Virus record (IMG/VR): IMGVR_UViG_3300010370_000265
Span: 1-22,724 of that record
Reading direction: 5' to 3' (one strand)
Origin: a virus
Length of the DNA: 22,724 nt
Of the stretch, positions 12,349 through 22,116 are shown in pieces. The notes beneath the pieces were generated by a model that searched no databases, was not told the DNA's origin, and worked only from the letters and a program-made list of their open reading frames with translations. The translations under genes and the position numbers were made by a program. How positions within the stretch are numbered: the first letter of the stretch is position 1; every line of letters begins with the position of its first letter.

Positions 12349-12381
12349 TAACAGGGGAGTCACACTCTCCAGAACGTGCTG

Positions 12382-12390
12382 TGGTATAAT
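12382..12390 (+). promoter_or_regulatory. Extended -10 promoter for the rightward block
   Basis: TGG followed directly by a consensus TATAAT (12385-12390). There is no good -35 (ACACTC-like at 17 bases), which extended -10 promoters tolerate. The start would be near 12397, about 90 bases before the first rightward ATG at 12489. The leader so produced contains two terminator-like hairpins. Confidence 0.6.
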
Positions 12391-12426
12391 AGAGCCAGTT
12401 TTGGGAGCCTTTCCCGGGACTGCGCC

Positions 12427-12450
12427 GCCCCGCCGCTTGCGGGGCTTTCT
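12427..12450 (+). terminator. Leader terminator-like hairpin 1
   Basis: A perfect 7-bp GC stem GCCCCGC (12427-12433) / GCGGGGC (12439-12445) with a 5-base loop, followed by TTTCTT. It lies about 30 bases after the predicted start of the early transcript and ahead of its first gene. It could attenuate the transcript or end read-through from upstream. Confidence 0.7.
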
Positions 12451-12451
12451 T

Positions 12452-12477
12452 GTGGGACTTCGTGTCCCACTTTTTTT
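12452..12477 (+). terminator. GGGAC-N5-GTCCCAC hairpin, copy 1, with T-run
   Basis: Stem GTGGGAC (12452-12458) / GTCCCAC (12464-12470), loop TTCGT, then seven T (12471-12477). It is the best terminator-like member of a six-copy hairpin family in the rightward gaps. It ends one base before the GGAG ribosome site of the first gene, so its folding could also affect translation. Confidence 0.72.
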
Positions 12478-12488
12478 GGAGAATCAAC

Positions 12489-12854
12489 ATGAACGTCAAA
12501 CAGCTCATCAACATCGCCCTGCAATTCAAACGCGGCGCCGCTGCGCAGCAAGACGCGGCCACCAAGCTCCGCAAGGTGTGTCGCAGCCGCGAGGCGGCGA
12601 AGGCCGCAATGCTGCCCGCCATCGCGCGGGCTTACGGTGCCAAGACGTCCACAACCAAGTCCGGCGCGGTGCGCTGGGTGAAAGGCGACAAAGCGGCCGT
12701 GGCCGCGAAGCGGGCATTGAATCGCCTGCTTGCAATGGCGTATCCGGGCAAGGCGACCAAGCGCGCCAAGTCTGACCCGGTAGTCGCGCTGCTCAATCGG
12801 TTCGGGAAACTCTCAGCGGCTCAGCAGCGCCGCTTCCTCAAAGCTGCCAAGTAA
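12489..12854 (+). CDS. Small very basic early protein
   Basis: Encodes 121 residues starting MNVKQLINIALQFKRG. The ATG at 12489 is chosen because GGAG lies 7 bases upstream; the longer open frame begins inside the leader hairpin. Lys, Arg and Ala dominate (RKVCRSREAAKAAMLP, AIARAYGAKTST, KAAVAAKRALNRLLAMAYPG), and the C-terminus is a helical LLNRFGKLSAAQQRRFLKAAK-like segment. It is probably alpha-helical and likely to bind nucleic acid, judging by charge. It is the first gene of the rightward block, a position often used for early regulators or host-takeover proteins. No family recognised. Confidence 0.68.
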   Translation: MNVKQLINIALQFKRGAAAQQDAATKLRKVCRSREAAKAAMLPAIARAYGAKTSTTKSGAVRWVKGDKAAVAAKRALNRLLAMAYPGKATKRAKSDPVVALLNRFGKLSAAQQRRFLKAAK

Positions 12855-12871
12855 TTTGACAGCTTGTTTTT
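12841..12871 (+). terminator. Weak terminator overlapping the stop codon
   Basis: AAGCTG (12841-12846) pairs with CAGCTT (12860-12865), extended by CAA/TTG across one mismatch, then GTTTTT. The stop codon TAA of the preceding gene lies in the loop. Only moderately stable; probably partial termination. Confidence 0.4.
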
Positions 12872-12883
12872 GAGAGATCGGGA

Positions 12884-12920
12884 GCGCGAGGGTGTCGGCG
12901 CTGTTTCGGCACCCCCGCGC
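12884..12920 (+). other. GC-rich intergenic stem-loop
   Basis: GCGCG-A-GGGTG (12884-12894) pairs with CACCC-C-CGCGC (12910-12920): ten base pairs with one A/C mismatch and a 15-base loop. No T-run follows. It lies between the first two rightward genes, just before hairpin-family copy 2, and could act in RNA processing or stability. Confidence 0.5.
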
Positions 12921-12931
12921 TTCATCGCAAC

Positions 12932-12948
12932 TGGGACACTTTGTCCCA
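12932..12948 (+). repeat. GGGAC-N5-GTCCCAC hairpin, copy 2
   Basis: TGGGACA (12932-12938) / TGTCCCA (12942-12948), continuing ACTTTAATC. GGGAC and GTCCC are separated by five bases (ACTTT), as in all other copies. It lies 20 bases before the ATG at 12969. Confidence 0.8.
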
Positions 12949-12968
12949 CTTTAATCAGGAGAATCACC

Positions 12969-13343
12969 ATGACCACGATCCTAAATTTGACCCAGCACCC
13001 CGCCACCCCCGACCAAATCGCGCAGGGAGTAGTTGACCTGCCGCCGAAAGCTCGGGAGTGGCTGTGCAAGCTGCTTACCTTCGACACCCTGCCGACCCCG
13101 CGGGAGGTGGTCAGTCGCGCGATGAAGATTGCCCACATGCCGGAGGTGGCTGCACACACCGGCCCCTGCATGATCGGGGGCGCTCCGTATTTAATGCCCT
13201 CTTTGGAGGGGCTGCTGAAGATCAAGACGCGCAAGCCCGTAGTCTATGCGTTTTCCACTCGGGAGAGCGTTGAGCAGGTGCAACCGGACGGAACCGTCCG
13301 GAAGGTGGCTGTATTTCGTCACACCGGATTTGTTGGCCTCTAA
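12969..13343 (+). CDS. Conserved LTQHPATPDQ protein, possible CARF/Csx20-like
   Basis: Encodes 124 residues. The ATG at 12969 has AGGAG 7-8 bases upstream. It starts with a strand and loop TILNLTQHPATPDQIAQGVV, then DLPPKAREWLCKLLTFDTLP, a helical segment, a glycine-rich MIGGAPYLMPSLEGLL turn-helix, and a C-terminal strand block (VVYAFSTRESVEQVQPDGTV, then FRHTGFV). I recognise this as a protein widespread in phages, prophages and bacteria, usually annotated hypothetical. The N-terminal LTQHPATPxQ, a central LP..L..L, and the terminal YA-S-RES-E--PDG-V-K--VFRH--F resemble what I remember of the small CRISPR-linked Csx20/CARF-type Rossmann domains. That link is unverified. Intact, no missing segment evident. 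Confidence 0.7.
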   Translation: MTTILNLTQHPATPDQIAQGVVDLPPKAREWLCKLLTFDTLPTPREVVSRAMKIAHMPEVAAHTGPCMIGGAPYLMPSLEGLLKIKTRKPVVYAFSTRESVEQVQPDGTVRKVAVFRHTGFVGL

Positions 13344-13354
13344 GGAGAATCACC

Positions 13355-13618
13355 ATGAAACTACAATCCCTGCACCACGTAAAGTCTTACCCGATGCCCC
13401 CGCTGCATCGCCCACCACGCGGGTATCACTCTCGCGTCTATCGCCACGGCAGCATGTGGCAGGTGGACTTGTTCAAGGGCGCTCGCACTGAATTCTCAGG
13501 CGAGATGTTCAAGCGCGGCGACGCCACCGCGCTGGCTAAGGCATGGGGCGACAAGCGGCTGCGCCACATCATCTGGTGCAGCTTCGGGCTAACTTCACCC
13601 CGTCAAAAGTGGGACTGA
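13355..13618 (+). CDS. Small basic hypothetical phage protein
   Basis: Encodes 87 residues with an AGGAGAATCACC leader before the ATG, identical to that of the preceding gene, 11 bases after its stop. It is rich in His, Arg, Trp and Pro (VKSYPMPPLHRPPRGYHSRV), with a strand-like YRHGSMWQVDLFKGART and ALAKAWGDKRLRHIIWCSFG near the end. The pattern suggests a small mixed alpha/beta domain; no family recognised. Its TGA stop forms part of the loop of hairpin-family copy 3, so the hairpin is partly coding. Confidence 0.65.
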   Translation: MKLQSLHHVKSYPMPPLHRPPRGYHSRVYRHGSMWQVDLFKGARTEFSGEMFKRGDATALAKAWGDKRLRHIIWCSFGLTSPRQKWD

Positions 13619-13628
13619 CTGTCCCACT
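13608..13628 (+). repeat. GGGAC-N5-GTCCCAC hairpin, copy 3
   Basis: AGTGGGAC (13608-13615), loop TGACT containing the stop codon of the preceding gene, GTCCCACT (13621-13628), then GTTTCTC. An 8-bp perfect stem directly at the 3' end of a coding region. Confidence 0.82.
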
Positions 13629-13654
13629 GTTTCTCACAAACGTATTACACAGAA

Positions 13655-13674
13655 GATGTCAAATATTTGACATC
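13655..13674. promoter_or_regulatory. 20-bp perfect palindrome, candidate operator
   Basis: GATGTCAAAT followed by its exact reverse complement. TTGACA is present on both strands within it, but no fitting -10 lies 16-18 bases away in either direction, so it looks more like a dimeric repressor or initiator site than a promoter. Confidence 0.55.
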
Positions 13675-13684
13675 GCGGACATTT

Positions 13685-13722
13685 GTCCACTCCGTCCTAG
13701 AAAAAACCCCCGAGCTGGGCGC
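13685..13722. repeat. Inverted repeat, left arm
   Basis: The reverse complement of this arm aligns with 13921-13959 at about 31 of 39 positions, including a shared TTTTTTCTAGGAC core, an upstream CTCGG and a downstream TGGAC. The arms enclose about 200 bases including the AT-rich block. Confidence 0.7.
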
Positions 13723-13772
13723 AGATTCATCTGATGAATCAAAGGACTTCCGTCCAAGTGTCCAGCGTGTCC

Positions 13773-13809
13773 ATATATATATAACCTTTTACCTTTCCAA
13801 ATATATATA
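13773..13809. other. AT-rich block
   Basis: ATATATATATAA and AAATATATATA flank a pyrimidine stretch ACCTTTTACCTTTCC (itself two ACCTTT steps). It stands out against the GC-rich window and would melt easily, as a DNA-unwinding element does. Confidence 0.6.
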
Positions 13810-13870
13810 CAGCGGCTTTGCGGACGTTTTTTTCTTTTAAGTCTTGGAAGCTTTGTTTGTCCGTAAAACA

Positions 13871-13903
13871 TGGACGCGCCGGACTTTTTCAAGTAACTTG
13901 TTG
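13871..13903 (+). repeat. 33-bp imperfect direct repeat, copy 1
   Basis: Matches 13955-13987 at 26 of 33 positions; the shared skeleton is TGGACGC..., TTTTC and GTAACTT.TTG. The copies start 84 bases apart. Confidence 0.68.
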
Positions 13904-13920
13904 ATGCGCCTAAACAATTT

Positions 13921-13959
13921 GCGTCCCACTCGGCCTTTTTTTCTAGGACAGAGGTGGAC
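13921..13959. repeat. Inverted repeat, right arm
   Basis: Partner of 13685-13722, with seven T followed by CTAGGAC. The T-rich stretch after a CTCGG gives a terminator-like look, but no stable local stem precedes it. Confidence 0.68.
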
Positions 13960-13987
13960 GCACGTGACGTTTTCTTGTAACTTATTG
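13955..13987 (+). repeat. 33-bp imperfect direct repeat, copy 2
   Basis: Second copy of the repeat at 13871-13903. It ends 15 bases before the ATG of the zinc-ribbon gene, so a protein binding here could also control that gene. Its first bases overlap the right inverted arm. Confidence 0.68.
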
Positions 13988-14002
13988 AAAGGACACGCGA
14001 TT

Positions 14003-14395
14003 ATGCAACCCACTTCCCAGATTTGCGAAGGATGCGGTGTCAAACGGGGCCGAAATCTGTTCCTCAGACGCCACAAACAGCGTCTGATCGTGGAAAAACG
14101 GTGCGTGAAGTGCCGCGCCGCCACGCTTCTGCGCGACAAAACGGGCAAGGCAATCCAGCGTGCGCTCAACAAGAACGAGATCACGGAACCCGAAGCGCGC
14201 GCCCTCCAAGCCACGCTCAAAGCAACCCGCGAAGCGGCCGAGCAGCAACGCCGCGCGAAGATCAGCGCACGAACCCGCAACACGTGGGATGCCCTGCGCA
14301 ACCCCGTGACCCCGCAAGAACAGGCGCGCCGCAAGAAGATCAGCGACGCGCTCAAGGACAAGCCACGCGCCCCTCGCAGGGTCGTGGTGTTGTAA
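14003..14395 (+). CDS. Small zinc-ribbon protein with basic helical tail
   Basis: Encodes 130 residues. The ATG at 14003 has AAAGGA 9 bases upstream; a longer open frame runs back through the repeats but has no ribosome site and encodes only repeat-derived sequence. Cys8, Cys11, Cys34 and Cys37 form two CxxC knuckles (CEGC, CVKC) around a basic strand pair (RNLFLRRHKQRLIVEKR), a classic zinc ribbon. The remainder is strongly basic and helical (KAIQRALNKNEITEPEARAL, ATREAAEQQRRAKISART). It probably binds DNA or RNA. Lying right beside the repeat-rich region, it could be the factor that recognises it; that is speculation. The stop codon runs into hairpin copy 4. Confidence 0.72.
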   Translation: MQPTSQICEGCGVKRGRNLFLRRHKQRLIVEKRCVKCRAATLLRDKTGKAIQRALNKNEITEPEARALQATLKATREAAEQQRRAKISARTRNTWDALRNPVTPQEQARRKKISDALKDKPRAPRRVVVL

Positions 14396-14416
14396 GTGGG
14401 ACACGCTGTCCCACTT
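14394..14416 (+). repeat. GGGAC-N5-GTCCCAC hairpin, copy 4
   Basis: AAGTGGGACA (14394-14403) / TGTCCCACTT (14407-14416), a perfect 10-bp stem with a CGC loop, then TGCTT. The longest stem in the family. It overlaps the TAA of the zinc-ribbon gene. Confidence 0.88.
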
Positions 14417-14478
14417 TGCTTCAACCAGTGTCAACCGTCTCACCAGCAGTTCTTATTAACTCAATCAGGAGAATCATC

Positions 14479-14649
14479 ATGCGTATCAAACAAACCAACC
14501 AGAAGTTCTTCAACCCGCTCAAGCCCTTCCTTGAGTTCACGATGCCGCGCCCCTCCGCATACTGCGCTGGCAAGCTGGTGTATCCGGCTACGCAACCGCG
14601 CGTCAGCATCAAGCCCGTCCCGGCGTGGCGTGCTGCCTACCTCAACTAA
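14479..14649 (+). CDS. 56-residue hypothetical protein
   Basis: Starts MRIKQTNQKFFNPLKPFLEF with an AGGAGAATCATC leader before the ATG, the same leader as in neighbouring genes, which is the main support for the gene. The rest (TMPRPSAYCAGKLVYPATQP, VSIKPVPAWRAAYLN) is basic and Pro-rich, with no recognisable domain. It ends 25 bases before the next ATG. The ribosome site and gap placement support a real small protein; function unknown. Confidence 0.55.
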   Translation: MRIKQTNQKFFNPLKPFLEFTMPRPSAYCAGKLVYPATQPRVSIKPVPAWRAAYLN

Positions 14650-14674
14650 CCACAACACATTACGGAGAACCAAG

Positions 14675-14989
14675 ATGAAAGCCAAGACCAAGCGCACCAA
14701 CAAAACCAAGAAGCAAGCCAAGGGCAGCGAAAACCCCCGCAGCCTGATCTTCACGGCGCGGTGGGAGAAACCGGGAGCGTGGCCGAAAGAGTATGACTAC
14801 CCCTACAAGATGGCGTTTGTCATGCCGAACGGTAGGACCAAAACCCTCTGCCTCCGCGTCATTCCGTTCGACGGGCACTTTATGGATGCACTGGACGCAT
14901 GCTATGGGCTCGGTAAGTTACACGATAAACCCAAGCTCGTGCCGGACAGCGAAATCCTCCTCAGCGCCATACCGGTGCCGACCCGGTAA
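14675..14989 (+). CDS. Hypothetical early protein with Lys-rich start
   Basis: Encodes 104 residues. GGAG lies 8 bases before the ATG at 14675. Residues 1-18 are almost all Lys, Thr, Asn and Arg (KAKTKRTNKTKKQAKG), followed by a compact domain (SLIFTARWEKPGAWPKEYDY, MAFVMPNGRTKTLCLRVIPF, FMDALDACYGLGKLHDKPKL). No family recognised. A disordered basic tail plus a small globular domain suggests binding to nucleic acid or ribosomes, without direct evidence. It ends 15 bases before the next ATG. Confidence 0.65.
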   Translation: MKAKTKRTNKTKKQAKGSENPRSLIFTARWEKPGAWPKEYDYPYKMAFVMPNGRTKTLCLRVIPFDGHFMDALDACYGLGKLHDKPKLVPDSEILLSAIPVPTR

Positions 14990-15004
14990 ACGAGGAAAAA
15001 CATC

Positions 15005-15454
15005 ATGGGATACCGCAGCAATGTGGTGGCGTATTTCTACGTCACCAAGAATCAGGTCTTTGACCCCGAGATCGACCCCTTCCTCCACAAAAACGGGTTT
15101 GATCGCGCGCTCACCCTGTTTCGGGTGTGGTGGGAGAACGATGATCTCACCCGAGCGCTCGTTGAAAGGTTTGGTGCTGACGTGGAGGCCACCGACAGGG
15201 GTGTGTTGTTCAGTTGCGAGCATGTCAAATGGTATGAGGGTTACGAAGGCGTCGCGCTGTTCAACAAGGTAGCCACCCGCTTCAGGGAGGACTTCATCTA
15301 CAACGACGAGCTTGATGGCGGCGTCGGCATGAACAAGATGTTCTGCTACGAGTTCGCTCGCATAGGGGAGGAGCTAGATGACAACGAGTTCGAAACGTTC
15401 GGTGTAGCTAACGAGTATCGGCTGCACATTAACCGCATCATAACTGTTGATTAG
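15005..15454 (+). CDS. MGYRSNV-type conserved phage protein
   Basis: Encodes 149 residues beginning MGYRSNVVAYFYVTKNQ, an opening shared by a family of phage hypothetical proteins. It is acidic and mixed alpha/beta (LFRVWWENDDLTRALVERFG, HVKWYEGYEGVALFNKVATR, FCYEFARIGEELDDNEFETF), ending with HINRIITVD. No catalytic residues or metal motif are evident. GAGGA lies about 9 bases before the ATG. The acidic nature contrasts with the basic genes to its left and might suit a protein that mimics DNA or inhibits a host factor, but that is conjecture. Confidence 0.7.
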   Translation: MGYRSNVVAYFYVTKNQVFDPEIDPFLHKNGFDRALTLFRVWWENDDLTRALVERFGADVEATDRGVLFSCEHVKWYEGYEGVALFNKVATRFREDFIYNDELDGGVGMNKMFCYEFARIGEELDDNEFETFGVANEYRLHINRIITVD

Positions 15455-15465
15455 AGGAGAACAGC

Positions 15466-15672
15466 ATGACCACTGAAACGCGTCCCGCCCAAACGTATGA
15501 CGGGGTCACCGACCTCGTCCCGATGGACCTCTACTACATCAAGGGCTACCCCGGGCACTATTTCGGGAACAAGCTGGCCGCCGAGGTAGAGGCGCGGCGT
15601 GTGTTTTCGTTGGAGAGCGAGGATCGGAGGTATGCCCGGATTTTTTATAAACGTGTGTTTGTGGAGGTGTGA
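15466..15672 (+). CDS. 68-residue hypothetical protein
   Basis: Starts MTTETRPAQTYDGVTDLVPM with AGGAG 7 bases upstream, 11 bases after the preceding stop. It contains LYYIKGYPGHYFGNKLAAEV and ends in a strand YARIFYKRVFVEV. A small alpha/beta fold is likely. No family recognised. The next gene begins one base after its stop. Confidence 0.62.
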   Translation: MTTETRPAQTYDGVTDLVPMDLYYIKGYPGHYFGNKLAAEVEARRVFSLESEDRRYARIFYKRVFVEV

Positions 15673-15673
15673 G

Positions 15674-16111
15674 ATGAACGAGTCTACGAAAACCCAAGAA
15701 TGGGTGGAAAAAATGAGTAACTATAAAAAGCTGTGGGAGGTTCAAGTCGGGCAGTTCCCCGACTCGGTATATCTGAACGACACGCAGGTGCTCAACCTGA
15801 TTATGTCCGCTGTGCCGGACTGGCTGCGTGACATGACGTGGGATATGTGGGACAGGAAGGGGGACTACGATAACGACATGGAGGCACGGCTGGCGTTCTA
15901 CGAGTGGCGTGAAAAGGAGATCACGAAGAACCGTTTCATCTGGGCAATCAACGCGTTCTCCAACCGGTCGCAGTCAAGCGATGGGTTCTTCTACGCATGC
16001 GGCAAGCGTGAGGACGGTCGGTATAAACACATCGGGTTCCGCACGGGGCTTGAGCCATCCGACTACTCATCAGGTTACATGGGGCTTAACTACAAGGAGA
16101 ACGGGAAATGA
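15674..16111 (+). CDS. Acidic Trp-rich hypothetical phage protein
   Basis: Encodes 145 residues. The ATG at 15674 is preferred because GGAGG lies 7-8 bases upstream, inside the previous gene. The sequence is rich in Trp, Asp and Tyr (LWEVQVGQFPDSVYL, VPDWLRDMTWDMWDRKGDYD, RLAFYEWREKEITKNRFIWA), with a C-terminal FFYACGKREDGRYKHIGFRT strand block. No known family. It overlaps the NinX-like gene by ATGA, so the two are co-translated. Confidence 0.66.
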   Translation: MNESTKTQEWVEKMSNYKKLWEVQVGQFPDSVYLNDTQVLNLIMSAVPDWLRDMTWDMWDRKGDYDNDMEARLAFYEWREKEITKNRFIWAINAFSNRSQSSDGFFYACGKREDGRYKHIGFRTGLEPSDYSSGYMGLNYKENGK

Positions 16112-16455
16112 AGATTAAACCGAGTGAGTTAAAGGGCGAGGCCCTTGATACGCTGGTGGCTAAGTGCGAGGGGAAAACATCGCTTGAAAAATACTGGTTC
16201 TTTCCCTCAACCGACTGGGCGCAAGCTGGCCCGATCATCGAGCGGGAGTTCATCAGCATTTTCGATCTTCCAAGCGGAATTGACGTTACGCAACACCCAA
16301 CATTCACCGAAGGTGATTTGTGGGAGGCTGAGATTATTCCTGCTGGTGAAGACTCTATCCGTTACTGCGGCCCTACCCCGCTAGTCGCAGCCATGCGCTG
16401 CTATGTCGCATCTAAACTCGGCGACGAGATCGAGATACCGGAGGAATTGAAATGA
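16108..16455 (+). CDS. NinX-like protein (DUF2591)
   Basis: Encodes 115 residues. It matches the NinX/DUF2591 family, known from the nin regions of lambdoid phages such as P22. Visible signatures are KPSELKGEALDTLVAKCEG at the start, the STDWAQAGPIIERE block, and C-terminal TPLVAAMRCYVASKLGDE followed by a short EIPEELK. The family is common in enterobacterial and other proteobacterial phages and prophages, and its biochemical role is not established. The length is slightly short of some members but all blocks are present. It overlaps the previous gene (ATGA) and the next one (ATGA). Confidence 0.86.
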   Translation: MKIKPSELKGEALDTLVAKCEGKTSLEKYWFFPSTDWAQAGPIIEREFISIFDLPSGIDVTQHPTFTEGDLWEAEIIPAGEDSIRYCGPTPLVAAMRCYVASKLGDEIEIPEELK

Positions 16456-16456
16456 A
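16439..16456 (+). repeat. 18-bp direct repeat, copy 1
   Basis: CGGAGGAATTGAAATGAA covers the end of the NinX-like gene, a ribosome site and the start of the next gene. An identical copy lies exactly 100 bases downstream (16539-16556), so one whole small gene is bracketed by the repeats. Confidence 0.85.
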
Positions 16457-16550
16457 ACACAGGTTCGTACGTCTGGTAAAGGGTGGCACACGCAAGATGT
16501 GCCGATGCTGCGGCAAGGTGATCATTGAACTACCGAAGCGGAGGAATTGA
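16452..16550 (+). CDS. 32-residue protein with CRCC motif
   Basis: A very short gene: MKHRFVRLVKGGTRKMCRCC followed by GKVIIELPKRRN. The ATG overlaps the preceding stop (ATGA) and has GGAGGAATTGA ahead. Cys17, Cys19 and Cys20 could bind a metal but are too few for a full zinc finger; it is very basic. Overlaps, ribosome site and bracketing by an 18-bp repeat support it as a true or recently inserted gene. Function unknown. Confidence 0.55.
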   Translation: MKHRFVRLVKGGTRKMCRCCGKVIIELPKRRN

Positions 16551-16556
16551 AATGAA
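16539..16556 (+). repeat. 18-bp direct repeat, copy 2
   Basis: Identical to 16439-16456. It spans the stop of the 32-residue gene, the ribosome site and the start of the next gene. Confidence 0.85.
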
Positions 16557-16728
16557 CGGATACGTATGCTTTCACAACAGGAAGCGAGTCGAAGTCAGGG
16601 CGGAAACGTCACAACAGGCGCAAGCCGAAGCTGCGCGCATGCTACGCGTGAAGCGCCCGTGGGAAGTAACCGTTGTGCTGGCCGAGCGCGCTGACGGCAG
16701 CGAAGTAACCCACACCGCTGCCGATTAA
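16552..16728 (+). CDS. Small conserved phage protein (58 residues)
   Basis: Starts MNGYVCFHNRKRVEVRAETS, with GGAGG 8 bases upstream; the ATG at 16552 is chosen over the upstream open frame because of that site. It continues with a helix (QQAQAEAARMLRVKRPWE) and a strand VTVVLAERADGSEVTH. This strand-helix-strand arrangement matches a small conserved protein in many phages and prophages (pattern Y-x-F-K-R-x-E-V-A-x-S, AQ..AA, VTV-LAE). Function unknown. It is the last gene before an untranslated gap. Confidence 0.7.
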   Translation: MNGYVCFHNRKRVEVRAETSQQAQAEAARMLRVKRPWEVTVVLAERADGSEVTHTAAD

Positions 16729-16761
16729 CCAAACATGTTTTGAGTAACACGTTAATACAAC

Positions 16762-16781
16762 AAGGAGACTCCACTATGTAA
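16762..16781 (+). other. Start-stop element: good ribosome site followed by ATG-TAA
   Basis: AAGGAG (16762-16767), an 8-base spacer, then ATG (16776-16778) directly followed by TAA. The ribosome site is as good as those of the real genes, but the frame is one codon long. It may be a dead remnant of a gene or a deliberate ribosome-loading site. It lies 6 bases before the -35 of the next promoter. Confidence 0.6.
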
Positions 16782-16786
16782 AACAC

Positions 16787-16815
16787 TTGACACTGCATTT
16801 ACCCTGCTTTATTGT
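16787..16815 (+). promoter_or_regulatory. Sigma70-like promoter for the AAA+/VWA genes
   Basis: A consensus TTGACA at 16787-16792, a 17-base spacer, then TATTGT at 16810-16815 (4 of 6). The start would be near 16822, six bases before hairpin-family copy 5, so the transcript would begin with that hairpin. Confidence 0.68.
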
Positions 16816-16827
16816 CACAACAAAAAC

Positions 16828-16842
16828 GGGACACAACGTCCC
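16828..16842 (+). repeat. GGGAC-N5-GTCCCAC hairpin, copy 5
   Basis: GGGAC (16828-16832), ACAAC, GTCCC (16838-16842), then ACTTACAACG. The left flank is AC rather than GT, so the stem is only 5 bp, yet the right flank CACTT is kept. Located at the predicted 5' end of the mRNA. Confidence 0.78.
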
Positions 16843-16865
16843 ACTTACAACGAAGGAGCAATACC

Positions 16866-17993
16866 ATGCAGATTCCAACCCTGTCGCACTCCCAAGTGTG
16901 CGACCTCATCAAGTCTGTCGGCAGCAAGCGCACCGTCCTCGTGCTGGGTGAGAACGGCGTAGGCAAGACCAGTATTCAGCACGACCTGCGCCAAGACCCT
17001 GCGTTCCTCAACTACAACGTGCTCTCTCCGGTTGACTGCACGCAGCTGTCGGATGGCAGCGTGTGGATGCCTGACATCGACCGTGAGGCTGGCGTGTCGC
17101 GCGAGCTTCCCAACGAGCGCTTCTGTCTGTCCAAGCACAACCACCGTGACCTCGCTGGCAGCCGGCCTTCGATCATCTGTCTTGACGAGCTGCTCAAGGC
17201 CCCGCAGTTCATCAAGAACGTGCTGGCCCCCATCCTCTACGAGCGGCGCAACGGCACGCTGCACTACCCGGAGGGCAGCATCATCTGGGCTACCAGCAAC
17301 CTCGCCGTTGAGGGCTTGGGCGATACCGTCCTGCCGCACCTGCGCACTCGGTTCATCAAGGTCATCATGCGCAAGCCGTTCAAGGATGAGTGGAAGAACG
17401 AGTTCGCGTATCCGGCTGGCATCCACCCCGCTGTCATCGTGTTCGTTGAGCAGAACCCCACCGTGTTTGAGTCCTTCATGGACTACGAGCCGGGCGGTAT
17501 CAACGCTGGCAAGGATATGGCCAAGTGCAACCCGTATCCATACAACCCGCGCATCAAGCAGGATGGCTACGTCAGCCCACGCACGCTGCACGCAGCGAGC
17601 GACATCCTGCACACTTGTTCGCACCTCGACCACGACACGCTGCTCGCCGCGCTCGCTGGTGCTATGGGTGAGGCGGGTGCCCGCATGCTGATGGCGCTGG
17701 TCGCGCTCAATCGTGACATCCCGTTGTATGACCGCGTCATCGCTGACCCCGACAACACGCCGGTCGTTGATAACCCCGCTGCGCAGCTTATGCAGATTCA
17801 GCAGTTCATCGTCAACACCAGCACGCGTGAGCAGGCGCAAGCAGTAACGACCTACATCAAGCGCATGCGCAACGAGATGCAGACGCTGTTCGTCAGCCAG
17901 ATCGCCAACAGCCCACGCATGACGTTGTTCGCAACGGTGTCAGCGTTCCTCACGCTGCTGCAAGACAACAAGATTTATCTCAACATCAAGTAA
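16866..17993 (+). CDS. MoxR/CobS-like AAA+ ATPase
   Basis: Encodes 375 residues; AAGGAG lies 7 bases before the ATG at 16866. Walker A is GENGVGKT (residues 28-35), Walker B IICLDELLKA (Asp107, Glu108), sensor 1 WATSN (141-145), and arginine-finger candidates lie in LPHLRTRFIK (Arg160, Arg162). The C-terminal half is helical (YVSPRTLHAASDILHTCSHL, ALAGAMGEAGARMLMALVAL). MoxR-type ATPases form hexameric rings that remodel partner proteins or insert metals, usually with a VWA protein encoded next door, as in RavA-ViaA or CobS-CobT. Here the VWA gene follows after 12 bases. All ATPase motifs are intact. A phage target is not known. Confidence 0.88.
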   Translation: MQIPTLSHSQVCDLIKSVGSKRTVLVLGENGVGKTSIQHDLRQDPAFLNYNVLSPVDCTQLSDGSVWMPDIDREAGVSRELPNERFCLSKHNHRDLAGSRPSIICLDELLKAPQFIKNVLAPILYERRNGTLHYPEGSIIWATSNLAVEGLGDTVLPHLRTRFIKVIMRKPFKDEWKNEFAYPAGIHPAVIVFVEQNPTVFESFMDYEPGGINAGKDMAKCNPYPYNPRIKQDGYVSPRTLHAASDILHTCSHLDHDTLLAALAGAMGEAGARMLMALVALNRDIPLYDRVIADPDNTPVVDNPAAQLMQIQQFIVNTSTREQAQAVTTYIKRMRNEMQTLFVSQIANSPRMTLFATVSAFLTLLQDNKIYLNIK

Positions 17994-18005
17994 GGGAGAA
18001 ACACC

Positions 18006-19211
18006 ATGCTATCTGAGCGTTCTTGGCAGACGCAGGACTTGACCACGCGTATCAAGATCGTGCACACCGACATCATGCGGCACCCCGAGTTCGCACTGCT
18101 TGCGGGTGTCGTGTGCATCGGCGACTTCCGCATCAGCGACACAACGCGCACTGCGTCCACCAACGGGCGCGATATCAAGTATGGCCGCAAGTTCTCTGAG
18201 CCTCTCAATCAGAAGCAGATGCGCTACTTGGTGTTGCACGAGAACGGACACAAGGCGATGCGCCACTGCGTCGAGTATCGGGAGATCACCCGCAAGTATC
18301 CAAAACTGAGCAACATCGCGCAGGACCACGTCATCAACTTGATGATCGAGGAGTGCGACCCGCACATGCAGTTCGTTGAGCGACCCATACCCAACCTGTA
18401 TTGCGACAAGAAGTATACGGGTATGAGCTTCATCGAGGTGCTGCAGGACTTGATCAATAACCCGCCCGAGGATGACGGCGAAGGTGGTGGCGGGAGTGGC
18501 AATCAAGTTCTTGACGAGCACGAGGATGGCAGCGAGCTTGGCGGTGACGTGCTGGAGCAGCTTGGCAAGGACATCGACGAGGCGCTGCGGCAGGGCAAGA
18601 TTCTGTCTGACAAGATGCGTGGCAAGGGCAAGGGCGGCAACCCGCTCGACGCTACCATTCAGCAACGTGAGACAGACTGGCGTGAGGCGCTGCTGGAGTT
18701 CCTGCAGTCGGTGTGCGCTGGCTATGACAACAGCCGCTTCTGCCCGCCCAACAAGCGGATGCTGCCGCTCGACGTCATCATGCCATCGCACTTCAGTGAG
18801 CGCATCGGTGAGCTGATCCTTGCGCCGGATACTTCCGGTTCGATGGATGGCGTGTATCCAACTGTGTTCGGCGAGGTGGCGCGCCTGTGCGAGATCGTCA
18901 TGCCGGAGTCTGTGCGCGTCATCTGGTGGGACGATGGGGTCAACAGCGAGCAGGTGTTCATGCCTGACGAGTATGACCGCATCGCTTCGCTGCTCAAACC
19001 GCAGGGCGGCGGGGGCACACGCGTGTCGTGTGTTGCTGAGTATATTGCGGAGAAGCAATACAAACCTGTAGCAGTGGTCTACCTCACTGACGGGTATATC
19101 GAGTCCAATTACAAGGTTCCCGATCTGCCGTGTCTGTGGGGCGTGGTTGACAACAAGTCTTTCAAGCCGCTCGTCGGCATGAAGATTGACATCAGCAGCA
19201 TCAACATTTAA
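18006..19211 (+). CDS. Metallopeptidase-VWA protein (DUF2201-like)
   Basis: Encodes 401 residues. The N-terminal half resembles the DUF2201 putative metallopeptidase domain: HENGH at residues 78-82 (HExxH zinc motif), then LSNIAQDHVINLMIEE, which could supply a third ligand. A flexible acidic Gly-rich linker (about 153-185) and a helical stretch follow. The C-terminus is VWA-like with the MIDAS motif DTSGSM (275-280), a Thr in GGGGTRVS (338) and LTDGYIE (360-366), so a metal-binding site is probably functional. VWA proteins are adaptors for MoxR ATPases; the metallopeptidase domain suggests a protease remodelled or powered by the neighbour. GGGAG lies 7 bases before the ATG. Confidence 0.86.
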   Translation: MLSERSWQTQDLTTRIKIVHTDIMRHPEFALLAGVVCIGDFRISDTTRTASTNGRDIKYGRKFSEPLNQKQMRYLVLHENGHKAMRHCVEYREITRKYPKLSNIAQDHVINLMIEECDPHMQFVERPIPNLYCDKKYTGMSFIEVLQDLINNPPEDDGEGGGGSGNQVLDEHEDGSELGGDVLEQLGKDIDEALRQGKILSDKMRGKGKGGNPLDATIQQRETDWREALLEFLQSVCAGYDNSRFCPPNKRMLPLDVIMPSHFSERIGELILAPDTSGSMDGVYPTVFGEVARLCEIVMPESVRVIWWDDGVNSEQVFMPDEYDRIASLLKPQGGGGTRVSCVAEYIAEKQYKPVAVVYLTDGYIESNYKVPDLPCLWGVVDNKSFKPLVGMKIDISSINI

Positions 19212-19227
19212 TTCAGGAGAATAGATA

Positions 19228-20136
19228 ATGCAACGCTACAACATTGATACGTGCGCCATGCTGGTTGAGTTCAACGCAAGCGTGTGGACTGCGCGCAAGC
19301 TCGACCGCAACGTGACTGACGAGGTGGTGCGTGACAAGGGTGCTGCAGAGAAGGGCGCAGCGCGTGTCAACAAGAACCTGCTGGCCGGCCGCAAAGAGCT
19401 GGAGGTTATTCAGCAGTTCGTCAGCGAGGTGCGCAACTACGTGTATGCCTGCACCCTGCCGTGGTCTGACAGCGGTCTGCGCTTGCTGCCGGTCGTCAAG
19501 TTCCAGCGCTTCAACGCTGACATGGCACAGCACGAGGACAAGTATTGGAAACTGTGCGAGAGCTTCGTCACTGCGTATCCGTTCCTCATCACGGCGCAAG
19601 CAATGGCGCTGGGCGATATGTTCAAGCGTGACGAGTATCCGTCCCCCGACAGCATCAAGAGCAAGTTCGGGTTCCACGTCAACTACATGCCCGTGCCGAC
19701 CTCGGGTGACTTCCGTGTTGACGTAGGCGATGCGGCGCAAGCCGAGCTGCAGAAGCAACTGTCGGAACTGGCAGACAAGCGAGTCGAGGCGGCTATGGCC
19801 GATGTGCGTGCAAGGATCGGGGATCACCTGCGCCGCATGTCTGACCGTCTGCATATCGACGTGGTCGATGGGCAACCCAAGCCGCGCCGCTTCCACGACA
19901 CGCTGGTCGAGTCCGGGCTGGAGCTATGCGATACCGTCAAGGCGCTCAACGTCACGCAGGACCCTGATCTTGAGAAGGCACGCGCCGCGCTGGAGCGCAG
20001 CTTGACTAGTGTCACCGTCATTACCAAGAAGAACGGCAAGGAACTTTCGATTGCCGATACGTTGCGCGAAGACATGCAGCAACGTAGTGCGCTCAAGACG
20101 CAGGTGGACGAGATGCTCAACAAGTTCAATTGGTAA
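19228..20136 (+). CDS. Third protein of the AAA+/VWA set (possibly DUF3150-like)
   Basis: Encodes 302 residues; AGGAG lies 8 bases before the ATG, 16 bases after the VWA gene. The N-terminal third is helical with WTARKLDRNVTDEVVRDKG and NKNLLAGRKELEVIQQFVSE; the centre contains LRLLPVVKFQRFNADMAQHE and YPSPDSIKSKFGFHVNYMPV; the rest is a coiled coil (AQAELQKQLSELADKRVEA). Proteins of similar layout (DUF3150) accompany CobS/VWA pairs in conjugative elements such as SXT/R391, which is why I suggest this family; it is from memory and not confirmed. The role is probably as substrate, adaptor or structural partner of the ATPase. Confidence 0.66.
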   Translation: MQRYNIDTCAMLVEFNASVWTARKLDRNVTDEVVRDKGAAEKGAARVNKNLLAGRKELEVIQQFVSEVRNYVYACTLPWSDSGLRLLPVVKFQRFNADMAQHEDKYWKLCESFVTAYPFLITAQAMALGDMFKRDEYPSPDSIKSKFGFHVNYMPVPTSGDFRVDVGDAAQAELQKQLSELADKRVEAAMADVRARIGDHLRRMSDRLHIDVVDGQPKPRRFHDTLVESGLELCDTVKALNVTQDPDLEKARAALERSLTSVTVITKKNGKELSIADTLREDMQQRSALKTQVDEMLNKFNW

Positions 20137-20145
20137 GAGGGCTGC

Positions 20146-20349
20146 ATGCCAACGAAGCTCAAAGATGGCAAAGATATAGTGCGGGAGCTGGAGTCTGTGA
20201 TTGTGCATGACGGCGGCCCCCGCTGTTTGACCGTGATGATTCGGTCTGATGGCGTGATGTTCCTACGCGCCAAAGGATTGAAGCGGCAGGTGATGTGGAA
20301 GCTGGAGGCCCTGTATGACAAGGGCGTTAAAGAAGGTAGGTTTTGTTAA
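20146..20349 (+). CDS. Small hypothetical protein
   Basis: Encodes 67 residues starting MPTKLKDGKDIVRELESVIV, 9 bases after the previous stop with AGAGGG upstream. It has a strand-rich centre (GGPRCLTVMIRSDGVMFLRA) and a basic helix at the end (KGLKRQVMWKLEALYDKGVK). Tight spacing places it in the AAA+/VWA transcript. No family recognised. Possibly a small DNA-binding or adaptor protein. Confidence 0.62.
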   Translation: MPTKLKDGKDIVRELESVIVHDGGPRCLTVMIRSDGVMFLRAKGLKRQVMWKLEALYDKGVKEGRFC

Positions 20350-20366
20350 TAACTTTGGAGAAAGCA

Positions 20367-20777
20367 ATGATCGAAGAAATCATGAAGCGTCTGGAAGCAA
20401 TCGAAGCGCACATGGCGCAGATGCAGGCCAAACTGGAGCACACGCCGCTTAACGACGAGATGAAAACGGCGGTGGAGATGTGCCTCAAAGAGTCTGAGTG
20501 GTTCGGCGAAATGGTGGACACCGAGCTTGGTAATGCACTAAGCGAAATGGAAAATAACTTGGAACATTACGTAGACGAAGAAGTAGATCGGCAACTTAAC
20601 AGCAACGTGGAGTCCGAAGTCGAGCGGGCGATAGACAATTATGCCCAAGACCTCAAAGACGTGCAGCGCGAGGTTGAGGAGGTGCGGGATGAAGTGAATG
20701 GGTTGGACAGCAGGGTGGGTGTGCTGGAGAATGAGTTGGAAGAAGTAAAGAGCGAAGTTGAAAGGGAGGCAGCATGA
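20367..20777 (+). CDS. Acidic coiled-coil protein
   Basis: Encodes 136 residues. The ATG at 20367 has GGAG 7 bases upstream and is preferred to a TTG-like start further up. Nearly the whole protein is an acidic helix: MIEEIMKRLEAIEAHMAQMQ, LSEMENNLEHYVDEEVDRQL, and heptads near the end (VQREVEEVRDEVNGLDSRVG, VLENELEEVKSEVEREA). The overall net charge is strongly negative. It overlaps the nuclease gene by ATGA. It could tether or regulate that nuclease, act as an anti-host decoy, or be a structural coiled coil; the sequence does not decide. Confidence 0.7.
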   Translation: MIEEIMKRLEAIEAHMAQMQAKLEHTPLNDEMKTAVEMCLKESEWFGEMVDTELGNALSEMENNLEHYVDEEVDRQLNSNVESEVERAIDNYAQDLKDVQREVEEVRDEVNGLDSRVGVLENELEEVKSEVEREAA

Positions 20778-21073
20778 CACCGGAGGGCAAGGTAAAAAAG
20801 AAAGTCACGGATATCCTGAAGAAGCATGGGGTGTATTACTTCTTCCCGGCAACGGGTGGGTATGGGCGTAGCGGTGTGCCTGACATCGTGTGCTGCTTCA
20901 AAGGTAACTTCTTGGCTATCGAGTGCAAGGCCAACGGCAACAACCCAACGGCACTGCAGGCGCGCGAGATAAACAGGATCAACGAGGCTGGCGGTATGGC
21001 TCTCGTGGTGAGAGATACCGATTACGAGCTGCTGGATAAGTTGCTGGTTGACTTTGCGAAGCAGCTTGACTGA
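20774..21073 (+). CDS. VRR-NUC family nuclease
   Basis: Encodes 99 residues, the full length of a stand-alone VRR-NUC domain. PD-(D/E)xK features are all present: an early Glu4 in TPEGKVKKKV, the glycine-rich FFPATGGYGRSGVPD turn with catalytic Asp37, and the IECKA strand (Glu50, Lys52), followed by the helix LQAREINRINEAGGMALVV typical of the family. Such phage enzymes are thought to cut branched DNA (Holliday-junction-like) or to act in recombination and DNA processing. It is co-translated with the coiled-coil gene. Hairpin copy 6 lies 13 bases after its stop. Confidence 0.88.
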   Translation: MTPEGKVKKKVTDILKKHGVYYFFPATGGYGRSGVPDIVCCFKGNFLAIECKANGNNPTALQAREINRINEAGGMALVVRDTDYELLDKLLVDFAKQLD

Positions 21074-21086
21074 CCGAAGCAAAAAC

Positions 21087-21101
21087 GGGACAGCATGTCC
21101 C
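21087..21101 (+). repeat. GGGAC-N5-GTCCCAC hairpin, copy 6
   Basis: GGGACA (21087-21092) / TGTCCC (21096-21101), N5 AGCAT, then ACTTTTATTT. The left flank AAAAAC is the same as in copy 5. It lies between the nuclease and the next gene, so it could end the AAA+/VWA transcript. Confidence 0.82.
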
Positions 21102-21132: not shown

Positions 21133-22116
21133 ATGTTTTCGGACTCTGTGCACAATATTTCCCCCATCGCAGGTTTCCCGCAGGCTCGCCGCTACTTTGA
21201 GTCAACGCGCAAGCCACCACGCTCAAAGCGATGGGAAGAACATCAGCGCCCGCTGTACAAAGTATCCGCGCCTCACTATCGCATCGAGTGCTTTGACGGC
21301 GCAACGGAAGCGGATAGCTACTACGACATCGTGCATTATCAAACGCCGTTGCTGCGCTACTTCGCCCCCAAAGAGGACGGGTCGTATGCCATGCTGGTTA
21401 ACTATTACTACTCACTCACTTCTCGCAAACTGCTTGCGCGTATGCGCTATGGCACGGGTAGTGGTTTTTCTTCTGTTGAGGAAGGTAAGCGGGTCCGCAT
21501 ACCCATGCGATATGCCTGCAAAGAAGACTACACAGCGCCCAACGGCGTGACGGTGCCCAAAGGTTGGAGTGCTCTGTTGACTTACAAAGAGTCAGGCATG
21601 CTTGACGTGTCCCGCTCAGCGCACGGACCAGTCCATGTGTTTCATACAAGCCGCGAACGCCGCGCGGAACGCAGCACTTTCTTCAAGCAGATCAGACCAT
21701 ACGTCGATATACTCATGCTGTCGCTACCGTCAACGCACGCTAATGCGTTTGTATGTCGATGGGGGTCTGTTAGCTATAGGGCTGTTGATGAATTGCGGGA
21801 AGCGTTGCAGCTTTTTTCTGAGTCTGATGGCTTAATGACTGAAGCGCTGCTGCATAGTATGTCTAATGCTTTCGCGTGTGCGTACGCAGTGCGTTGGGAA
21901 CACTGGATGCAGGACAAGCATTACCCTCTTTTTTCAACAATAAAAACGAGCACGCGTATGCCTGAAGGTATGCCAATGCTTCCAGCAGACATGGCGAGGA
22001 ACGCCTTCATGTCGTTCTTGCAGAACTCATTGGCACCGTTTAGCAAGGGCGATGAGCACAAGTGCTTGGGGCAGTTTCCAGAAAACCTGCCGCGCCGCTA
22101 CTACGCAACGAATTGA
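21133..22116 (+). CDS. Hypothetical 327-residue phage protein
   Basis: Starts MFSDSVHNISPIAGFPQARR, with GGAG 8 bases upstream. It is a mixed alpha/beta protein rich in Tyr and Arg (PHYRIECFDGATEADSYYDI, YHYQ-type strand VHYQTPLLRYFAP, MLVNYYYSLTSRKLLARMRY), with a long helical C-terminal half (VDELREALQLFSESDGLMTE, LLHSMSNAFACAYAVRWEHW). I recognise no family and see no catalytic motif. It is the largest unknown in the rightward block and begins after hairpin copy 6, so it may be a separate transcription unit. Confidence 0.7.
   Translation: MFSDSVHNISPIAGFPQARRYFESTRKPPRSKRWEEHQRPLYKVSAPHYRIECFDGATEADSYYDIVHYQTPLLRYFAPKEDGSYAMLVNYYYSLTSRKLLARMRYGTGSGFSSVEEGKRVRIPMRYACKEDYTAPNGVTVPKGWSALLTYKESGMLDVSRSAHGPVHVFHTSRERRAERSTFFKQIRPYVDILMLSLPSTHANAFVCRWGSVSYRAVDELREALQLFSESDGLMTEALLHSMSNAFACAYAVRWEHWMQDKHYPLFSTIKTSTRMPEGMPMLPADMARNAFMSFLQNSLAPFSKGDEHKCLGQFPENLPRRYYATN

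Follow-up and report, generated by a model that had tools for sequence, protein, structure and literature searches.

Cluster A mycobacteriophages such as L5 and Bxb1 carry many short stoperators genome-wide, sites at which elongation is blocked; these are 13 bp long, asymmetric and oriented with transcription, their consensus differs between related phages and tracks the partner protein, and the repressor serves lysogeny (PMC6550527, PMC9283540). In cluster K mycobacteriophages such as TM4, SAS and ESAS repeats lie just 5' of start codons in the non-structural half of the genome; the SAS is a fixed 13-bp asymmetric motif, the ESAS is an inverted repeat with imperfect 17-bp arms whose consensus differs by subcluster, and no partner gene is reported in that work (PMC3203893). 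Promoters of the N4 virion RNA polymerase are conserved in sequence in a 3-nt hairpin loop (PMC4496689), and N-boxB antitermination is described for lambda (PMC11480772).

The sites described here lie in a viral window of 22,724 nt (the whole stretch of DNA that we analyzed, positions 1 to 22,724 of IMG/VR record IMGVR_UViG_3300010370_000265). Like stoperators, they are several short sites dispersed in gene gaps with a phage-specific consensus, and this consensus follows the divergence of a candidate binding protein, the product of the first early gene (gene 1). They differ in having perfect inverted arms, in being confined to the early region, and in that their candidate partner is this unrelated early gene rather than a cluster A repressor. 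Whereas cluster A phages are temperate and carry integration functions, a search of 13 contigs from the present group for the integrase family PF00589, with a control positive in 14 of 14 genomes, found none, making a classic integrating-prophage role of the regulator unlikely. The resemblance to SAS and ESAS lies in repeats just ahead of starts and, for ESAS, in inverted repeats with a group-specific consensus; here, however, the arms are 5 to 8 bp and perfect, many sites come after stop codons, a candidate partner exists, and the 13-bp GGGATAGGAGCCC-type SAS motif is absent around the starts of the window.

Lambda N is a small first early protein that recognizes boxB, a hairpin with a 5-bp stem and a 5-nt loop, and its specificity differs between related phages. 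The present system is similar in having a small first early protein, such a hairpin and a specificity that differs between related phages, but its loops vary and show no conserved GNRA-like sequence, boxA occurs at 0 of 219 sites, the sites are many rather than two, and some lie upstream of the promoter. We rejected a lambda-N system on the first two of these counts, the variable loops and the missing boxA.

The window contains six GGGAC-N5-GTCCC cores (Table 1), against an expectation of 0.017 (chance ≈0.02) in Markov sequences of the same composition; the best alternative 5-bp arm with an N5 spacer reaches just two copies. An earlier note on this DNA had given the copies, their arms, 5-nt spacers and loop sequences correctly, with start coordinates 1 to 4 bases too early for the first four. 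The conserved right flank that it described is also present, ACT following the core in six of six copies and then T in five, but the core itself is a palindrome, so that the orientation ascribed to the copies comes only from this flank (ACTT). Two copies had been said to overlap a stop codon: copy 3 does (the TGA of ORF 13355-13618), whereas copy 4 starts past the TAA of ORF 14003-14395 and therefore touches it solely by its extended stem. The leftward late block holds no copy, as had been noted. Rfam gave no match at the sites, and a collection-wide search for the GGGAC-N5-GTCCC pattern returned mainly single chance matches. Three to seven copies occur in the other viral contigs L126, L101, L120 and L053; several of those in L126 have A-runs and T-runs on their flanks and in this resemble bidirectional terminators.

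Table 1. Early-region features of the window (coordinates in nt).
Feature	Position	Strand	Sequence	Remarks
Extended -10 promoter	12380..12390	+	TGTGGTATAAT	Upstream of gene 1; conserved in most relatives
Leader terminator	12427..12451	+	GCCCCGC-CGCTT-GCGGGGC-TTTCTT	Between promoter and site 1
Site 1	12454..12468		GGGAC-TTCGT-GTCCC	35 nt 5' of gene-1 start; leader terminator immediately before; T7 after
Gene 1	12489..12854	+		121-aa product; first early gene; candidate reader of the sites, from co-variation with stem type
Site 2	12933..12947		GGGAC-ACTTT-GTCCC	78 nt past gene-1 stop; ≈20 nt ahead of next start
Site 3	13611..13625		GGGAC-TGACT-GTCCC	Spans stop codon of ORF 13355-13618; ≈375-nt gap after
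Site 4	14398..14412		GGGAC-ACGCT-GTCCC	2 nt past stop of ORF 14003-14395
Site 5	16828..16842		GGGAC-ACAAC-GTCCC	23 nt 5' of MoxR ATPase start
MoxR-type AAA ATPase	16866..17993	+		Served to find relatives and as distance yardstick
Site 6	21087..21101		GGGAC-AGCAT-GTCCC	31 nt 5' of ORF 21133-22116

We retrieved ≈110 related viral contigs through the MoxR gene adjoining copy 5. The lack of conservation in related phages that, according to the earlier note, would refute its reading was not found. Near relatives (L128 and L129, 84-85% identity) keep the GGGAC sites at matching places, the site 5 ortholog having a 4-nt spacer in both. More distant relatives have few GGGAC sites or none and keep the arrangement with other stems: nearly all that include an early region carry a recurrent palindrome of their own, where shuffled sequences reach a maximum of 1-2 copies. 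These stems comprise GTAGAC, GTTGAC, GTGGAC, GTGGAG, GGTGGAG, GCAGAG, GCGGAC, GCAGAC, AGTATC, GTGGTC, GGACGG, GGACAG, GGGTTC, AGGTGTG and others. Our catalogue holds 219 distinct intergenic sites from 58 loci, with ≈27 different stems and 3-10 repeats per phage, and perfect copies (213) far outnumber real near-misses (about a dozen). Among 16 distinct odd-spaced arms, each of the six pair positions holds a Watson-Crick pair in all families, with at most four pair types. In 23 of 27 stems the 5' arm is rich in G. Loops vary from site to site in each genome, and the spacer is constant in most genomes but variable in two groups (4 or 5 nt for GGGAC; 4, 6 or 7 nt for GGGGAC). What the window shows is a single instance of a widespread system, shared by dozens of related water phages.

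By terminase, the phages nearest to this group are the pelagiphages HTVC023P/027P, DSL-LC04 and Pag-Yong1. The last, a cultured Planktothrix cyanophage and a distant relative, carries at least 15 intergenic GGTTC-N5-GAACC sites, many of them 21-22 nt ahead of starts. A 5.9-kb contig from a Chthoniobacterales metagenome bin (L265) encodes a MoxR 84% identical to that of the window and is probably phage DNA that was placed in a bacterial bin.

Most of the catalogued sites (188 of 219) lie between two early genes, and a further 22 lie ahead of the first early gene. Two position classes are prominent: sites 13-35 nt ahead of a start codon and sites 1-20 nt past a stop codon. Genes in the relatives were called with a simple purpose-made caller, so that individual distances may be off. 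Ten whole genomes, 634 kb in total, contain 51 cognate palindromes, of which 50 fall between -300 and +12000 of gene 1. Gene 1 itself is usually bracketed by cognate sites, one before it (-140 to -29) or inside its ORF (+48 to +303) and one 0-54 nt past its stop. Sites within the gene-1 coding sequence, found in L134, L137, L146, L158, L184, L226, L257 and others, fix the peptide encoded there, VEKTST from GTGGAGAAAACCTCCAC and ADIESA from a GCAGAC site.

Phages with 97-99% identical MoxR can have different stems at homologous sites. At homologous flanks, L171 has GGACGG and L174 has GGGGAC with 99% identical MoxR, and L258 (GTGGTC) and L262 (GTGGAG) likewise differ with near-identical MoxR. 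The simplest cause of such a wholesale switch in near-identical phages is that a trans-acting reader switches too. Among phages with MoxR at least 90% identical, the median identity of the gene-1 N-domain is 86% when the stem is the same and 17% when it is different, whereas the neighboring proteins do not respond (VWA, 92% and 92%; a 302-aa protein, 97% and 95%). At equal MoxR distance, sharing a stem adds 43 points of identity to gene 1 over 107 pairs, ranking it first of 23 clusters; the pairs share ancestry and gene 1 evolves fast, so this figure is an effect size and not a p-value. The same effect is 0-2 points for MoxR, VWA and the 302-aa protein, and a few other early genes reach 10-27 points on fewer pairs. 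Linkage does not account for the pattern because the sites adjoining MoxR switch as well, and MoxR does not. Stem and first early gene therefore change together. We consider a site-partner relation between the two highly probable, and the gene-1 product is, judging from these comparisons, very probably the protein that reads the sites. Of the functions listed in the earlier note, binding sites for one phage regulator is thus well supported by the sequence comparisons. We also considered a trans-acting small RNA carrying one arm of the stem and rejected it, as no consistent single-arm copy was found.

Gene 1 defines a new protein family with a variable N-domain and a conserved C-tail, DPVVALLNRFGKLSAAQQRRFL, whose consensus is KxDxVxxLLxxFxxLTAAExRRFLxxI. 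The first early gene of Pag-Yong1 has the same C-tail, ending in KKADKVAALVKAFKELSPAEQARFTATL. Comparison of gene 1 with Pfam, PHROGs and the PDB gave matches at chance level only. An AlphaFold2 model (mean pLDDT 86.6) predicts a helix-helix-β hairpin-helix arrangement followed by a helical tail; it has no fold match in the PDB below E 0.8, and a known DNA-binding fold is thus not seen in gene 1.

The main rival to a DNA operator, a less likely but serious one, is that the gene-1 protein would read the sites as hairpins in the leaders and trailers of early mRNAs, acting as a translational repressor, RNA-processing factor or lambda-N-like antiterminator. Many sites lie 13-35 nt ahead of a start codon, often with a Shine-Dalgarno sequence ≈9-11 nt past the hairpin, a placement that fits an RNA role as well as an operator. 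The G-rich 5' arms, the sometimes variable spacer, the occasional T-runs and the leader terminator ahead of gene 1 also agree with RNA. Other terminators point the same way: of 41 class A sites, 10 have one within 90 nt upstream, and of 77 class B sites, 14 have one downstream. In seven loci from two stem groups (L229, L252, L237, L256, L262, L258 and L259), however, the site belonging to gene 1 precedes the conserved extended -10 promoter, centered about -50 or -62 from the predicted start, and would be absent from that transcript. Flanking and loop positions, the pairs just outside and inside the stem, showed no within-site covariation in a rotated-flank test run by class and then on all sites, and the loops are unconstrained. 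A wobble test for RNA pairing saw G-U and A-C about equally often in near-misses. A spacer of constant length in most genomes also agrees with DNA. The earlier note had argued for selection on structure, and the arms do always match across stems, but pairing in flanks and loops is not enriched within sites; moreover, matching arms are not specific to RNA structure, because a dimer on two equal half-sites gives the same pattern. Its suggestion of weak terminators holds for a minority only, a T-run following 32 of 210 sites. Together, the upstream sites and the missing flank covariation favor a double-stranded DNA operator over an RNA hairpin; granted the site-partner relation, we lean toward the sites acting as DNA, and RNA-level roles seem less probable.

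A role of the sites in replication, partition or DNA condensation, again with the gene-1 protein as reader, would suit palindromes clustered in one region of the genome, but these are dispersed over ≈6 kb in gene gaps without an iteron cluster and gene 1 matches no replication or partition family, so we judge this very improbable. We give even less weight to an N4-like early transcription in which the hairpins would be promoters of a phage RNA polymerase. That idea was suggested by the MoxR/VWA pair and the leftward late block, and it draws on short hairpins of genome-specific sequence 5' of early genes and on the existence of a giant late protein of 2.4-3.1k aa. The loops vary here, unlike the conserved N4 loop, a Shine-Dalgarno sequence begins 0-3 nt past some hairpins, a σ70-like promoter is conserved, and the terminase is of the HTVC023P/Pag-Yong1 type, placing these phages in a different group. 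No RNA polymerase was seen: the giant protein has no single-subunit RNA polymerase motif, and PF00940 gave no match in 13 large contigs, but its control likewise gave none. In the giant protein (L189:11714-19933, minus strand; L188:3-8321; also L194 and L205), the C-terminal third is conserved (LPD38 in L189) and the N-terminal part varies greatly. Ordinary intrinsic terminators or hairpins for RNA stability, serving host machinery with no phage factor, are comparably remote, since the T-run at copy 1 and some class B sites is missing from most, and host-read structure alone does not explain an exact stem that is fixed per genome and switches with gene 1.

The leader RNA between the promoter and gene 1 (window 12396-12451; L258:3326-3397; L252:3030-3100; others) forms two hairpins, the second an intrinsic terminator immediately 5' of the gene-1 Shine-Dalgarno sequence, with compensatory changes at 10 of 14 consensus pairs in 20 phages. 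It has no Rfam match and may act as an attenuator, as a put-like element or as a small RNA. A noncoding gap of ≈370-400 nt after an early site (window 13626-14002) is kept in many relatives (for example, L256 after 3563 and L258 after 4234) and contains CTCCACAACGTGTTGTGGAG, which is similar to the -35 side of the gene-1 promoter and constant across stem types. Two proteins of 302 and 327 aa (window 19228-20136 and 21133-22116, the latter gene directly behind copy 6) are conserved in nearly all relatives and have no Pfam or PHROG match.

We propose that a single phage regulator, the gene-1 product, has the six repeats as its cognate sites and would bind each of them as double-stranded DNA, probably as a dimer on two inverted half-sites (G-N-N-G-A/T-C/G). 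Made first, it would bind close to its own promoter or gene and in gaps throughout the early block. By analogy with stoperators, it would most likely act by repression or as a roadblock to transcription, turning off the early genes, its own included, later in infection. We assign a probability of about 50% to such an early repressor or roadblock, with stoperator-like operators that are dispersed and in phages for which no integrase was detected; the variable spacer in two groups sits awkwardly with a rigid dimer. Protein and sites would switch specificity together within the group, as in heteroimmune phages, and protection against co-infecting relatives may drive the switching. A more speculative and rather doubtful extension is a non-integrating phage family with "immunity groups" without lysogeny, in which a first-expressed regulator with a hypervariable reading domain and a constant effector tail would change in concert with its private operators, keeping co-infecting relatives from reading one another's early genes.

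With ≈27 protein-site pairs available from a single phage group, in part from phages near-identical elsewhere, the evolution of regulator specificity becomes directly testable. The pairs also suggest what a hypothetical first early gene, conserved across dozens of uncultured phages, may do, and through the C-tail the same candidate function extends to a cultured Planktothrix phage. These findings suggest that dispersed-operator control and heteroimmunity-like switching extend beyond temperate mycobacteriophages.
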